In this document: piece by piece, positions 1,994 to 16,543 of the stretch | How positions within the stretch are numbered: the first letter of the stretch is position 1 | Layout of the letters: the number at the start of each line of letters is the position of its first letter | Translations under genes and position numbers: made by a program | Assembly: GCA_905479985.1 (NCBI GenBank) | Contig: CAJQOM010000013.1 | Location: forward strand, 62,001-126,000 | Source of the DNA: an uncultured Gammaproteobacteria bacterium | Lineage (GTDB): Bacteria; Pseudomonadota; Gammaproteobacteria; Nitrosococcales; Methylophagaceae | DNA: 64,000 bases | Reading direction: 5' to 3' | Notes under the pieces: generated by a model | Told to the model about the DNA's origin: nothing | Seen by the model: the letters and a program-made list of their open reading frames with translations, nothing else | Database searches by the model: none

Positions 1994-2308
1994 GTGTTTT
2001 TAACAAATATAGAAGAAGTGCCGGGTAAGCGCATTATCGCCTGCTATGGCGTGGTATCGGGTAGTACGGTACGGGCAAAACATGTCGGCCGAGATATTAT
2101 GGCGGGGTTGAAAAATATTTTTGGTGGTGAGCTTGAGGCTTATACGGAGCTGTTGTCCGAGGCGAGAGAACAGGCAATGTTACGCATGCAGCAGCAAGCT
2201 GAATCTTTAGGTGCGAATGCGATTGTGAATGTGCGCTTTTCGACTTCTTCGGTCACAGCAGGGGCTTCTGAGATTTATATCTATGGTACTGCGGTGACGG
2301 TCGAGTAA
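1994..2308 (+). CDS. YbjQ family (UPF0145) heavy-metal-binding-like protein, soluble
   Basis: A 104-residue protein with the YbjQ/UPF0145 pattern: an N-terminal PGKRIIACYGVVSGSTVRAKH, the central GLKNIFGGELEAYTELL (about residues 37-53), and C-terminal LGANAIVNVRF. No signal peptide or membrane segment is visible, and it matches the usual length of about 105 residues. YbjQ proteins form pentamers; their function is unknown. The start is GTG at 1994, supported by an AAGGAAGCAAGG stretch just upstream. The next gene follows after 5 nt and is a membrane-anchored paralogue, so the two are probably co-transcribed and may associate. Confidence 0.85.
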   Translation: MFLTNIEEVPGKRIIACYGVVSGSTVRAKHVGRDIMAGLKNIFGGELEAYTELLSEAREQAMLRMQQQAESLGANAIVNVRFSTSSVTAGASEIYIYGTAVTVE

Positions 2309-2313
2309 GCTTT

Positions 2314-2754
2314 ATGTGGGATTTATATTTTCTTATTTCTTTGATTGTAACAGGCTATATATTCGGCCAGATACATGAGCGCCGGCATTATGCATCACTC
2401 AAGAAGCGTGAGCTGGAGATGATGAAAATGGTGATGACAAGTAGTAAGCGACCATTAGGCGAGTTGGGCCCGATTATGGAAGCTAAGCTTGTTCAAGGTG
2501 GCGTGGTGATTTCTGTTGATTACTTTAAACGGATTGTGACCAGTTTACGTAATTTCTTCGGTGGCAATATTCGGGGTTATGAGACGTTAGTTGATCGGGC
2601 TCGGCGAGAAGCGATTTTGCGATTAAAAGAATCTTGTCCTGATGCCACACAAATTATTAATTTGAGATTAGAAACGTCGTCGATATACAAGGGTAGAGGT
2701 AACCAGATTGGTTCGGTTGAAGTGTTAGCTTATGCGACAGCGCTTTATACTTAA
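2314..2754 (+). CDS. YbjQ family protein with N-terminal membrane anchor
   Basis: A 146-residue protein. Residues 4-18 (LYFLISLIVTGYIFG) form a single membrane segment, followed by a charged linker (ERRHYASLKKRELEMMK) and then a divergent YbjQ domain with VISVDYFKRIVTSLRNFFGG, YETLVDRARREA and ATQIINLRLETS. The NFFGG and RAR..A positions align with NIFGG and EAR.QA in the preceding gene, so this looks like a duplicated and diverged YbjQ fold tethered to the inner membrane. It lies 5 nt from both neighbours, in an operon with the soluble YbjQ protein and an M48 peptidase. Confidence 0.8.
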   Translation: MWDLYFLISLIVTGYIFGQIHERRHYASLKKRELEMMKMVMTSSKRPLGELGPIMEAKLVQGGVVISVDYFKRIVTSLRNFFGGNIRGYETLVDRARREAILRLKESCPDATQIINLRLETSSIYKGRGNQIGSVEVLAYATALYT

Positions 2755-2759
2755 GTTTT

Positions 2760-3593
2760 ATGCAATATCACGCTAAGTTGCCAGATGACACGCCGAATGT
2801 GTCTCACCAGAACCCGGTAAAGGAGTTTTTGTCCTTATTGGCGGGTTTGTTGGCGATAGTGTTGTTTGTTTATTGGATTCTAGGCTTTTTTATCGATGAG
2901 GCTGTTGAGTTTATCTCGCCTGAGATGGAAATCGCTATTTTTGAATCCTTAGGTGAAGAAATTATTGCGAGCCAGGGTGGTGAACGTTCTGACAAAATTA
3001 ATAAAACAGAACAACATATGCGTGTTTTGCTTGATGATTTGACTGCTTGTATGGACGTGGGGTATCCGATAGAGCTGATTTTTCAGCAATCGGATAAAGC
3101 CAATGCTTTTGCTGCGCCGGGTGGGAAAATGGTGGTGTTGTCGGGTTTACTTAAGCATGTTAAATCTGAAAATGGGTTGGCTTTTGTGGTTGCACATGAA
3201 TTAGGCCACTTTAAAAACCGCGATCATTTACGTGGTTTGGGTCGTGGGGTAGTGTTGATGGCATTATCTTTTTTAGCGACGGGTAATATGCACCTTTCGA
3301 AAGTATTAGTGCCTGTTAATGCCTTTCAAAATGCGCAGTTTTCACAAGGCCGAGAAAGTGATGCGGATGAGAGGGCTTTGGATATTATTCAATGTCATTA
3401 TGGTCATGTCGGTGGTGCAACGGAGTTTTTTAGCAAGATCAGCGATCCTGAAGATGATTTGCCTTTTACGCATTATTTTAAGACGCACCCAGAGGCTGAG
3501 GCGAGGGTTAAGGCCATTCAATTATTGAGTCAAGAAAAGCATTATGTTGAAGGGGAAGTGAAACCTGCCTTTTGGTCTGGAACGATAAATTAA
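2760..3593 (+). CDS. M48 family membrane-anchored metallopeptidase
   Basis: A 277-residue protein with one membrane segment at about residues 25-45 (LSLLAGLLAIVLFVYWILGF). The zinc motif HELGH is at residues 146-150, and the third ligand is probably E199 in GRESDADERA; this is the standard M48 arrangement. A substrate-cleft motif AFAAPGGKMVVLSGLL precedes it. The size and single anchor resemble small M48 proteases of the HtpX/Oma1/LoiP group rather than HtpX itself, which has more membrane segments. It follows the two YbjQ genes after 5 nt; a link between the peptidase and YbjQ proteins is inferred from this arrangement only. Confidence 0.85.
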   Translation: MQYHAKLPDDTPNVSHQNPVKEFLSLLAGLLAIVLFVYWILGFFIDEAVEFISPEMEIAIFESLGEEIIASQGGERSDKINKTEQHMRVLLDDLTACMDVGYPIELIFQQSDKANAFAAPGGKMVVLSGLLKHVKSENGLAFVVAHELGHFKNRDHLRGLGRGVVLMALSFLATGNMHLSKVLVPVNAFQNAQFSQGRESDADERALDIIQCHYGHVGGATEFFSKISDPEDDLPFTHYFKTHPEAEARVKAIQLLSQEKHYVEGEVKPAFWSGTIN

Positions 3594-13366: not shown

Positions 13367-13903
13367 ATGCTTGAGTTGACGCGTTGGCATACTGTGCAGC
13401 GTCGTATGATGCCGAGAGAACTGGCACCATGGCTGTCGGATACGGGCTCTTTAACACGTCGTTTAAAGCGCCATAACCAAGTTGATTTTTCAGTCCAACT
13501 CTTGGGTAATAGCTGGATTAAACCACTGACAGATGAGAGTTTGGCCTTACAGGTGCCGTTGTCTGAATTAAGTTATCAGCGAGAAGTACTGTTAATGGAT
13601 GGCAATAATGCCAATGTTTATGCGCGAACTGTGGTGCCTAGAACAACTTATATGGCGTTGCAACACCGTTTTAATCAGTTGGGTAATAAGCCTTTAGGTG
13701 AATTGTTATTTACTGATCCAACCGTGGTGCGAGGCCCGATTGAAATTGCATGTTTAAAACCGGGGCAATGGTTATACGAAATGGCATTGCTAGAAGAACC
13801 AAGCCGACCAGCCGTGCTTTGGGGCCGGCGCTCGCAATTTTATTTAAGTGGTAAACCGTTATTGGTTAATGAAATTTTTTTACCCGCGTTACAAAGGCGT
13901 TAA
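13367..13903 (+). CDS. ubiC: Chorismate lyase UbiC
   Basis: A 178-residue protein with features of chorismate pyruvate-lyase: an N-terminal [12 protein letters not shown]-like segment ([17 protein letters not shown]), a [19 protein letters not shown] core, and C-terminal ARRSLF-type [22 protein letters not shown]. It makes 4-hydroxybenzoate, the first step of ubiquinone synthesis. A GTG at 13364 directly precedes the ATG at 13367; the ATG has better spacing from GGGAAGAA. The stop overlaps the ubiA start by one base (TAATG), so the two are translationally coupled. Confidence 0.92.
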
Positions 13904-14763
13904 TGATGGATGAGAAGTGGGGGCATTATATTCAGCTGATGCGGTTAGATCGGCCAATTGGTATTTTGTTGCTGCTGTGGCCGACTTTAGCCGCATTGTG
14001 GATTGCCGCCGAAGGCTGGCCAGATACTTTGGTGCTTATCATTTTTACGCTAGGCGTGATTGTTATGCGCAGTGCGGGTTGTGTGATCAATGATTATGCT
14101 GATCGCCATATTGATGGCCAAATTGTTCGCACGATGAACCGACCGTTAGCAACCGGTGCGTTGGATGAAAATGATGCCTTACGATTATTTGCAGTCTTAG
14201 GTGTTATTGCTTTTTTGCTCGTCATATTTTTGAATGATTTGACCATTTTAATGTCGGTAGTGGGCTTGTTTTTAGCCGCGACCTATCCGTTTATGAAACG
14301 TTTTACCTATTTGCCTCAGGTTTATTTAGGTGCCGCTTTTGGTTGGGCGATTCCGATGGCTTTTGCGGCGCAAACTGGCTCAGTTCCTATGATTGCTTGG
14401 CTTTTATTTATCGCCAATGTTATCTGGTCAACAATCTATGATACGTTCTATGCGATGGCTGATCGTGAAGATGATTTGTTGGCAGGCGTAAAGTCGACGG
14501 CGATCCTTTTCGGCAATGATGATAAAGTTATTATTGCCGTTTTGCAGGTGACTTTTCTGGTGGCGATGTTGATGGTGGGTAGTCAACTTGAGATGAGTTT
14601 TGCCTATTATATTGGGGTGTTAGTCAGCTTAATTTTGTTTGTTTATCAGCAACATTTGATACGAGATCGAGGCCCGGCAGAGTGTTTGCGCGCGTTCCTC
14701 AACAATAACTGGGTGGGTGCAGCTTTGTTCGCGGGCATCGTGGCACATTACGCTGTCATTTAA
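13903..14763 (+). CDS. ubiA: 4-hydroxybenzoate octaprenyltransferase UbiA
   Basis: A 286-residue polytopic membrane enzyme with about eight or nine helices. The two prenyl-diphosphate binding motifs are present: [10 protein letters not shown] (about residues 64-73) and DREDD (about residues 187-191). [17 protein letters not shown] near the N-terminus is typical of the proteobacterial enzyme. It attaches the polyprenyl tail to 4-hydroxybenzoate in the inner membrane. Coupling to ubiC through the shared base supports coordinated synthesis. Confidence 0.95.
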
Positions 14764-14790: not shown

Positions 14791-15426
14791 GTGAAGGAAC
14801 GGTTAACAGTATTTGCTGACATGTGTGATTATGATGCGGTTTTGACTGCTTATAACCATTTGGATGCTGCGATACAGCCCTTGCTGCCACTGGTGAGAAA
14901 AATGTATTTATTGTCTTCAAATGCATTTTCTTGTGCTGCTCGAGCGGGCCGGGATGGCGATATTTTTGGTGTATTAGCACAAGATATTCAGTCTTTAGGT
15001 GACGCTATTTCAGCTTGTATTTGTGACATTCAGTCGCTGCTGGATAAAAGTCTGGTAATACTTGCTAACTTGGTACGGGATTCAAGCTTAGAAATAGAAT
15101 ATACATCGGTTGATGAACAAGCGGCGTCTGCTAACTTGATCAATGAGCATCATCAATTAGTAGACTTATTACGCCAATTGGCGCTGGCCTTATCACCCGT
15201 TGGACGATTGATTCAGCAGGGTGAACATTTAGCGGTATTTTCATCGGTAGAAGCGGCCAATTCAAATGCACAGAGCGTGAGCTTTGAAGCGGTGGCATCG
15301 CGTTTGAAGATGTTAGTTGTCGATCTCAAGATAACCTCAAAACAACAAAACAGTTTATTACATGATTTGACTGAGTTGGTGGAACAACAGCAGTTGGTTT
15401 TAAGCGCGGCTGTCCAAGCTGCTTGA
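14791..15426 (+). CDS. Soluble helical protein with two chemoreceptor-hairpin-like motifs
   Basis: A 211-residue, almost wholly helical protein with no signal peptide, membrane segment, HAMP or sensor domain. Residues 49-69 (AARAGRDGDIFGVLAQDIQS and beyond) closely resemble the signalling tip of methyl-accepting chemotaxis proteins (EAARAGE.GRGFAVVA.EVR.L). A second, weaker copy lies at residues 153-176 (EAANSNAQSVSFEAVASRLK). The start is GTG at 14791, after a G-rich stretch that may serve as ribosome-binding site. It follows ubiA by 27 nt and converges with a GGDEF gene. No che genes are nearby. The family resemblance is mine by eye; the role is unknown. Confidence 0.65.
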   Translation: MKERLTVFADMCDYDAVLTAYNHLDAAIQPLLPLVRKMYLLSSNAFSCAARAGRDGDIFGVLAQDIQSLGDAISACICDIQSLLDKSLVILANLVRDSSLEIEYTSVDEQAASANLINEHHQLVDLLRQLALALSPVGRLIQQGEHLAVFSSVEAANSNAQSVSFEAVASRLKMLVVDLKITSKQQNSLLHDLTELVEQQQLVLSAAVQAA

Positions 15427-15442
15427 GATCATGAGTCTATTT

Positions 15443-16543
15443 TTAATCGGCGTGATGAACGCGATTCCGACCTGACATTTTGGCAGCGTAGACAGCTTGG
15501 TCTGCGGCATTAACCAGTTGTTTCGTCGTTTTGATATCCGATTGTTCATCCATCACCGATAGCCCGATAGACATGGTGACAGACAGGGTGTCTTTATTAG
15601 TGACTTTGAAAGGTGTGTCTTCAACGCGATTTCTGATACGTTCAGCAATTTCATAGGATGCATTTTGATCGGTATTAGCGAGTAAGATGACAAACTCTTC
15701 ACCGCCGTAACGGGCTAAGACATCACTGGTTCGCATAATATCTGCTAAGACGTTTGCAACTTCTTTTAGTACGATATCACCTGCTTGATGCCCATGGGTG
15801 TCATTAATGCTTTTAAAATGGTCGAGATCGATGAACAGGCAAGATAAAGGTGTTTTGTTACGGTGAGATAATGTGATTTCTTCTTCGATACGCTGATCAA
15901 AGAAGCGGCGATTATTAATGCCCGTCAATGGATCGAGTAGGCCGACTTGTTTGATGTTTTCTTGTAGACGGGCATTTTCAATGCAAGCGGAAATAACGGC
16001 AGCGAGATGTTGTAAAAATTGGGTACCCATGTCGGATTGGAAACGATTGGGGCTGCGACTGCCAAGGTTCAATGCGCCAATGAATTTGTCTTGCCGTATT
16101 AGCGGTAAGATGGCGACAGATTGGAGTGATTGAGTGTCTAGGAATAAGCTTTGATGGATGTGCGGGGAATAGCTTGATAAGCGTGGTTTGCGCAGCACTG
16201 AGAAATATTGGCTGATGGTACTTTTATCCTCGGTGAATAAAAGGTGTTTACGCCAAACGGGCACTTCAGCACTGTTGTCTAGCAGCCGTCGGAATTCGTA
16301 TTCAGGGTCGAGTAATAATAAGGTGACATCAGATAATTTAAACCGGGTACGGTGTTGTTCTAAAATAATGGCGAGGAGTTGATGTAAGCCGTTGGTGTTG
16401 AACAGGCTTAGTTCATATTCTTGGAAGTTACTTTGTTTTTGCTCATTCAACTTTGCCATTCGAATGAGTGCATCCAGCTTTGACTGTAATACCTCACCAT
16501 CTCTGGGCATGGGCGCGTTTTTAGATGACGAGATTCTATCCAT
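15443..16543 (-). CDS. Diguanylate cyclase with N-terminal DUF484/GAF-like domain
   Basis: A 366-residue protein. Residues about 40-195 form a GAF-like domain of the DUF484 type (VAILPLIRQDKFIGALNLGS, then NRFQSDMGTQFLQHLAAVIS). The GGDEF domain begins at DPLTGINNRRFF (residue 204). The active site is GGEEF at residues 280-284, and the inhibitory I-site RTSD is at 271-274, so it should be an active, feedback-inhibited cyclase. No membrane segment is seen, so it is cytosolic and probably senses an internal ligand. It lies 2 nt downstream of comF on the minus strand. Confidence 0.92.
   Translation of the reverse strand: MDRISSSKNAPMPRDGEVLQSKLDALIRMAKLNEQKQSNFQEYELSLFNTNGLHQLLAIILEQHRTRFKLSDVTLLLLDPEYEFRRLLDNSAEVPVWRKHLLFTEDKSTISQYFSVLRKPRLSSYSPHIHQSLFLDTQSLQSVAILPLIRQDKFIGALNLGSRSPNRFQSDMGTQFLQHLAAVISACIENARLQENIKQVGLLDPLTGINNRRFFDQRIEEEITLSHRNKTPLSCLFIDLDHFKSINDTHGHQAGDIVLKEVANVLADIMRTSDVLARYGGEEFVILLANTDQNASYEIAERIRNRVEDTPFKVTNKDTLSVTMSIGLSVMDEQSDIKTTKQLVNAADQAVYAAKMSGRNRVHHAD

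Follow-up and report, generated by a model that had tools for sequence, protein, structure and literature searches.

A soluble protein with two chemoreceptor-like tips

What is a small protein that resembles the tip of a chemoreceptor doing between ubiA and a gene for a diguanylate cyclase? The gene lies in what we call the window, which is the whole 64-kb stretch of DNA that was analyzed (C13:62001-126000 of a 2.2 Mb genome whose relatives include Methylophaga and other Methylophagaceae). We confirmed the open reading frame at 14791..15426 (+), which has a GTG start and encodes 211 amino acids. It begins 28 bp after ubiA (13903..14763, +), which is its conserved upstream neighbor in the Methylophagaceae and which we used as a synteny marker and a rate control. 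It ends 17 bp before a convergent gene for a DUF484/GAF-GGDEF diguanylate cyclase (15443..16543, -). (The DUF484/GAF region of the cyclase is N-terminal of GGDEF (PF04340, E = 1e-12), and the cyclase gene is conserved near ubiA in relatives from the Methylophagaceae.) Our answer is that the protein belongs to a widespread double-tip family of single-chain proteins, and is an orphaned, drifting member of it; the usual partner of such proteins is ODP, an oxygen-binding di-iron protein known as a sensor of O2/Fe in chemotaxis.

The initial annotation, which was made from the sequence alone, described residues 49-69 as the hairpin of a methyl-accepting chemotaxis protein (MCP) and residues 153-176 as a weaker repeat of it, and proposed a search against the MCPsignal profile (PF00015). 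This profile does match the window protein in two stretches (E = 8.6e-6), but at 26.1 bits the match falls under the curated cut-off of 34.6 bits. Relatives of the protein clear the cut-off, again in two stretches (44.0 bits for L025, 43.3 bits for L044, and 35.7 bits for L041).

Both hairpins were borne out by comparing profiles for the family with hhalign. Tip 1 (residues 49-69 of the window protein, AARAGRDGDIFGVLAQDIQSL, 14935..14997, +) aligns to MCP with E = 7e-12, and tip 2 (residues 153-176, the VEAANSNAQSVSFEAVASRLKMLV region, 15247..15318, +) aligns to MCP with E = 1.3e-7. The two tips align to each other with E = 3e-8. All three alignments are without gaps and keep one register, so the second repeat, though weaker, is genuine. 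The family profile also matches MCPs in the PDB (E = 6e-10). On these sequence grounds, both tips are shown to be homologous to MCP tips and to form a tandem duplication.

Could this instead be a helical hairpin protein with no kinship to MCPs, which resembles them through coiled-coil bias? The low score of the window copy against PF00015 would fit, and single members are also weakly matched by some coiled-coil families. But MCPsignal matches 22 of 36 family members, far above any other family, and the shared register with the MCP tip extends to both repeats. Also, the equivalent of Tsr N381 in tip 1 is invariant (44/44 members), and the family has che operon context (see below). We find this explanation hardly credible.

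As was claimed initially, the protein seems to lack the other parts of a receptor: a Pfam search of the window protein found no sensor, HAMP, or membrane domain, and we saw no membrane helix in it (the best Kyte-Doolittle mean across 19 residues is 1.44).

Predicted structure

AlphaFold2 predicts all-helical structures for the window protein (pLDDT 87.2) and for its relative L025 (pLDDT 86.8). In the window model, helices at residues 14-28 and 31-99 make up hairpin 1 (helix, tip, helix; residues about 14-99, 14830..15087, +), and helices at residues 106-157 and 162-210 make up hairpin 2 (residues about 106-210, 15106..15420, +). The predicted fold is a single-chain four-helix bundle. DSSP reads the turn of tip 1 as helical and reports a single long helix from 31 to 99. 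Since that helix is unbroken, the turn is not directly visible; it is suggested by how the chain as a whole matches four-helix bundles.

The closest structures are maquettes, which are four-helix bundles designed as a single chain, and they match over nearly the full length (Z = 19.6 with rmsd 2.5 over 193 residues for the window model, and Z = 19.9 with rmsd 2.0 over 194 residues). The structural matches listed by VIA were generic four-helix bundles, with no cytoplasmic chain of an MCP among them. (Solved MCP chains have one hairpin each.) With Foldseek, nothing in the PDB matched the model at E < 0.001. If the two MCP hairpins pair within the chain in the way that the two subunits of a receptor dimer pair, then a four-helix bundle is what one would expect. 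This fold is also common. Because the fold is common and the structure is a prediction, the model supports, and does not prove, the reading of the double-tip protein as a single-chain fusion that resembles a receptor dimer.

In many relatives, double-tip genes lie directly upstream of ODP

Of 59 sampled relatives, 29 have homologs, mostly at the same site after ubiA, with some of the weaker matches being ordinary MCPs. In scans of genome contigs, the divergent window protein alone had no matches, and the family alignment did find homologs. In at least 14 of the relatives with a double-tip gene, the next gene, usually overlapping, encodes ODP (PF19583). In the Methylophagaceae loci that we examined, an SNase-like gene then follows. 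In the window, the corresponding site is the junction at 15427..15442, where neither gene is present. So the survey of homologs and neighbors that the initial annotation called for did find a gene that is conserved after ubiA, and its usual neighbor is ODP, which that annotation had missed. (The SNase-like gene, at L025:6456-7298, L041:4135-4956, and elsewhere, encodes a DUF4124 N-terminus; it is missing from the window locus.)

The pairing extends well beyond these relatives. In all 48 loci that we examined, the double-tip gene is directly upstream of ODP on the same strand, and the two mostly overlap or are separated by 32 nt or less. Most of these loci (34 of 48) are outside the Methylophagaceae, from about 25 families. 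We also ran two surveys that started from ODP proteins, one of 369 genomes in the class and one of 398 in the phylum. Of the 35 loci with the closest ODPs in the two surveys, 34 encode a double-tip protein immediately upstream. The more distant ODP-like loci do not, except for L126. (L126 is from another class, and its two tips, at 2131-2952 (-), are in one frame that is interrupted by a single TAG.)

The ODPs of these relatives are similar to the oxygen-binding di-iron proteins 6QRQ/6QNM (E = 7e-69), and they keep the motifs HQDPD (47/48) and PQHG (46/48). We define the double-tip family by three features: a single soluble chain, about 165-260 amino acids long, with two tips like those of MCPs; an ODP gene directly downstream; and complementary residues in the two tips (R388 in tip 1, E385 in tip 2). 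The window protein has the two tips, the soluble chain, and the complementary tip residues that are described below; it does not have the downstream ODP. (Two members from Methylophaga, at L041 in G030 and L042 in G034, have 165-167 amino acids and a short linker between the hairpins, and there is no ODP in their genomes.)

These surveys also bear on the diguanylate cyclase, which the initial annotation had proposed as a partner of the double-tip protein. In the window, only 17 bp separate the two genes, and they are also neighbors in a few relatives (G003 and G016). However, they are convergent, and in most relatives, those with ODP, the ODP and SNase-like genes lie between them. Furthermore, two genomes of another order have the pair at a different site with no cyclase. 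On orientation and synteny, we rejected the GGDEF protein as a functional partner, and a role for the double-tip protein as a partner or regulator of the cyclase is very improbable. (At L071 and L072, the pair adjoins a gene that, from our own reading of the sequence, is ubiD-like. Both this gene and ubiA, which is beside the pair in the Methylophagaceae, are ubiquinone genes, which could be a coincidence.)

Links to chemotaxis genes

If the double-tip protein acts in chemotaxis, is the machinery present? The initial annotation noted that no che gene is nearby. This is true within the 64-kb window, but the same contig has a cheW-motB-motA-cheB-cheA-cheZ operon, with fliK nearby, that begins 6.9 kb outside the window. 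The distance from the double-tip gene to this operon, which lies past the window's end, is about 55 kb. The genome also encodes 7 other MCPs above the PF00015 cut-off, two CheA, and CheW. So the machinery that the double-tip protein would need is present.

In several other genomes, the pair is within or beside che operons. In G199, the order (by locus coordinates) is cheW, cheA, then cheB, cheD, cheR, ODP, double-tip, MCP. In G288, the pair comes after an operon with the order cheA-MCP-cheW-STAS-cheR-cheB-MCP. In G266 and G377, genes for cheR, cheB, and MCPs flank or adjoin the pair, and in G191 the pair is beside CheA and short MCPs. In the remaining 15 of the 20 wider loci, there are no che genes next to the pair, and its neighbors are mostly unrelated. 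(The operon in G288, at L144, G288:C1:1672000-1690000, includes a PAS-HAMP MCP and a STAS protein and is reminiscent of Aer2-type systems.)

The presence of the pair also goes with the presence of CheA. In the class survey, all 29 genomes with the pair have CheA, as compared to 194 of 369 overall (Fisher p = 3e-9; this test ignores relatedness, and the genomes with the pair span about 21 families). Within the Methylophagaceae, four genomes (G018, G022, G029, and G031) lack the double-tip gene, and no CheA was detected in them; in G012, the double-tip copy is broken and there is no CheA. One exception is G035, which has CheA and no double-tip gene. Another is G009, which is rated 99% complete and has an intact pair (L014, L141), and in which we did not find CheA with PF02895. 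G009 may have a gap in its assembly or may use the pair independently of CheA. Given the pairing in many relatives, the double-tip protein probably links ODP to the machinery that controls swimming.

The two tips are asymmetric

We counted tip residues, in Tsr numbering, in 44 non-redundant family members. Besides the invariant N381, tip 1 has R388 (or K) in 40 of 44 members and E385 (or D) in none of them. In tip 2, E385 is present in 39 of 44 members, R388 in 9, and N381 in 10. The position of F396 is hydrophobic in both tips. Hence the full set of tip contacts (N381, E385, and R388) is not found in each hairpin; instead, 38 of 44 members combine R388 in tip 1 with E385 in tip 2. The window copy does so as well. 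Its tip 1, taken with residues 40-48, has the equivalents of N381, R388, and F396 and lacks E385, and its tip 2 has the equivalents of E385 and F396 and lacks both R388 and the family's G390/E391 turn. (The asymmetry, with R388 in tip 1 and E385 in tip 2, appears to hold in L126.)

In ordinary receptors, partnering dimers are joined by E385-R388' ionic locks and by stacking of F396 (PMC8144572). In a trimer of receptor dimers, one subunit of each dimer is oriented towards the axis, and the other is oriented towards CheA and CheW (PMC4692393). From the residue counts, we infer that the two tips may be specialized for the axis-facing and CheA/CheW-facing positions. A stronger version is that the family is a widespread single-chain "dimer" in which N381 and the E385-R388' lock, which both subunits of ordinary receptors have, are split between the tips; this would fix which half meets the axis and which meets CheA/CheW, and would let ODP plug the oxygen or iron state into the arrays. 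We advance this version tentatively, and we put its chances slightly below even.

Loss of ODP in the window's lineage

We did not find ODP in the window genome. It is also missing from the genomes of G003, G006, G010, G012, G015, G016, G030, and G034. (In G010 and G030, there are matches to ODP that are below the threshold and are elsewhere in the genome.) The double-tip protein evolves differently in such genomes. The ratio of its dN to that of ubiA is 0.97 if both genomes have ODP (91 pairs) and 2.77 if neither does (28 pairs; in both cases the pairs are not independent). In other words, it evolves about three times faster than ubiA in relatives that lack ODP, and the two evolve at equal rates if ODP is present.

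For the window copy in particular, omega relative to G003 is 0.38, as compared to 0.05-0.08 for ubiA, ubiC, and the GGDEF gene, and to 0.04-0.10 for double-tip genes from pairs of genomes with ODP at similar dS. So constraint on this gene is relaxed about five-fold in omega. Nevertheless, dN/dS relative to G003 is below 1 (Fisher p = 9e-8), although part of this signal may predate the loss of ODP.

The drift is uneven along the protein. The window copy matches the consensus of the lineages with ODP at 0.68 and 0.57 in the tip cores and at 0.27 and 0.33 in the arms, and the tip cores match better than the arms in other copies that lack ODP as well. In MCPs generally, it is the arms that are less conserved, but members with ODP at similar divergence match the consensus at 0.74-0.88 in their arms. 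Judging from these alignments, the tips are kept better than the arms, as though contact with the array outlasts contact with ODP. In G006 and G015, which lack ODP, the tips are well conserved, so ODP is not needed for a double-tip gene to persist.

The loci suggest that the loss may have been stepwise: first ODP, then the SNase-like gene, and then a broken double-tip gene. G010 has lost ODP and retains the SNase-like gene; the window genome, G003, and G016 have lost both; and in G012, which lacks ODP, the double-tip copy is broken by stops. The copies in G007 and G001 are also broken. (The locus in G012, L035 at G012:C18:119800-130300, is decaying: besides the broken double-tip gene, it has a truncated comF and has no GGDEF gene.)

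Is the window copy a relic, then, as the initial annotation suggested it might be? If it were purely a relic, then without ODP it would have no function and would be decaying to a pseudogene. The absence of ODP, the elevated omega relative to both the neighboring genes and the pairs with ODP, the broken copies in other genomes (including G012, which has neither CheA nor ODP), and the missing turn residues in tip 2 all agree with this. On the other hand, the reading frame is intact, dN/dS is below 1 (with the proviso above), and the tip cores are retained better than the arms. The suggestion holds in part, because ODP is gone and constraint is relaxed, yet the frame is open and dN/dS is below 1. 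A pure relic is a serious possibility that we consider somewhat less probable than its negation.

A putative adaptor between ODP and CheA/CheW arrays

The explanation that we favor, and consider probable, is that the protein is an adaptor that couples ODP to CheA/CheW arrays and that has been orphaned in the window's lineage. The double-tip gene would encode a soluble, single-chain version of the tip of a chemoreceptor dimer, in which two tandem MCP hairpins would double back on each other to form a four-helix bundle, so that the two tips share one end. ODP, a di-iron protein with a metallo-beta-lactamase fold, would sense the signal. The double-tip protein would be the array-docking half of a two-gene sensor of oxygen or iron and would pass the signal from ODP into the CheA/CheW arrays, with its tips contacting neighboring receptors, CheW, or CheA. 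We infer direct contact with ODP (probably through the arms), docking to the array, and control of CheA. The lineage of the window has lost ODP, and the protein there is an orphan with partly kept tips and diverging arms that is either heading for loss or retained as a passive component of arrays.

The initial annotation proposed that the protein might be a decoy or a scaffold that binds CheW/CheA. The second half of this fares better: from genome context, a scaffold or adaptor of CheA/CheW arrays is likely the ancestral role. As a decoy or inhibitor, the soluble tip would take up CheW/CheA in competition with receptors, and so would damp the arrays independently of ODP. This would account for a double-tip protein without any sensor, for the partial retention of residues in the CheW/CheA region, and for the persistence of the gene without ODP in G000, G003, G006, G015, G030, and G034. 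But it leaves unexplained both the near-perfect pairing with ODP across about 25 families and the change in rate that is linked to ODP, and we think it is unlikely.

If the adaptor explanation is correct, then what does it imply? In the literature that we covered, chemotaxis towards oxygen or iron by ODP-type sensing is described from Treponema denticola and Thermotoga. The pairing suggests that ODP-type sensing is common in Gammaproteobacteria and has a dedicated adaptor. Natural single-chain MCP tips, which were reported with no known function (PMC4692393), gain a candidate partner. The asymmetry of the tips is a natural experiment on the roles of the inner and outer subunits of the dimers within a trimer, a question for which single-chain receptors were engineered in the first place. 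And the window copy shows the fate of an adaptor after its sensor is lost. Because the pairing and the asymmetry can be tested, the family is more interesting than the lone window copy, which is of modest interest.

Comparison with known systems

As in MCPs (PF00015), both tips of the window protein align in register with the hyperconserved tip of the signaling hairpin. Unlike MCPs, the double-tip protein has no HAMP, membrane, or sensor part, and it has lost E385 from tip 1 and usually R388 from tip 2. Its arms, at about 35-50 residues in the model, are too short to reach what we take, from general knowledge, to be the position of the methylation region. The known ODPs of PF19583 (6QRQ/6QNM) correspond to the partner in relatives, and this partner is missing from the window genome.

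The most similar two-gene system is from T. denticola, in which ODP (TDE2498) is an oxygen sensor for chemotaxis and is genetically coupled to TDE2496 (PMC7666581). TDE2496 is a homolog of MCPs without membrane and sensing modules and can modulate CheA, and deletion of ODP alters the ordering of CheA (PMC7666581). In both cases, then, an ODP gene is coupled to an MCP homolog that lacks membrane and sensing parts. Our proteins have about 165-260 amino acids, two divergent tips, and short arms. Also, the double-tip genes lie upstream of ODP and are from Pseudomonadota.

Single-chain MCPs, whether natural or engineered, resemble the double-tip proteins in having two MCP signaling hairpins per chain. 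Natural soluble ones have been noted in Rhodospirillum centenum and a handful of others, with no known role (PMC4692393). Engineered Tsr~Tsr chains signal, and their function is near normal if the linker has at least 22 residues (PMC4692393). Tsr~Tsr joins two identical, full-length subunits, while the double-tip proteins have far shorter arms and asymmetric tips. In the literature searched, which the main 2019 study of ODP lies outside of, we found no description of double-tip proteins paired with ODP. Unlike the natural single-chain MCPs, the double-tip family has a sensor partner that was identified from genome context. Soluble MCPs have been described in single-chain form and, separately, in linkage with ODP; the combination of the two, with contacts split between the tips, appears to be new.
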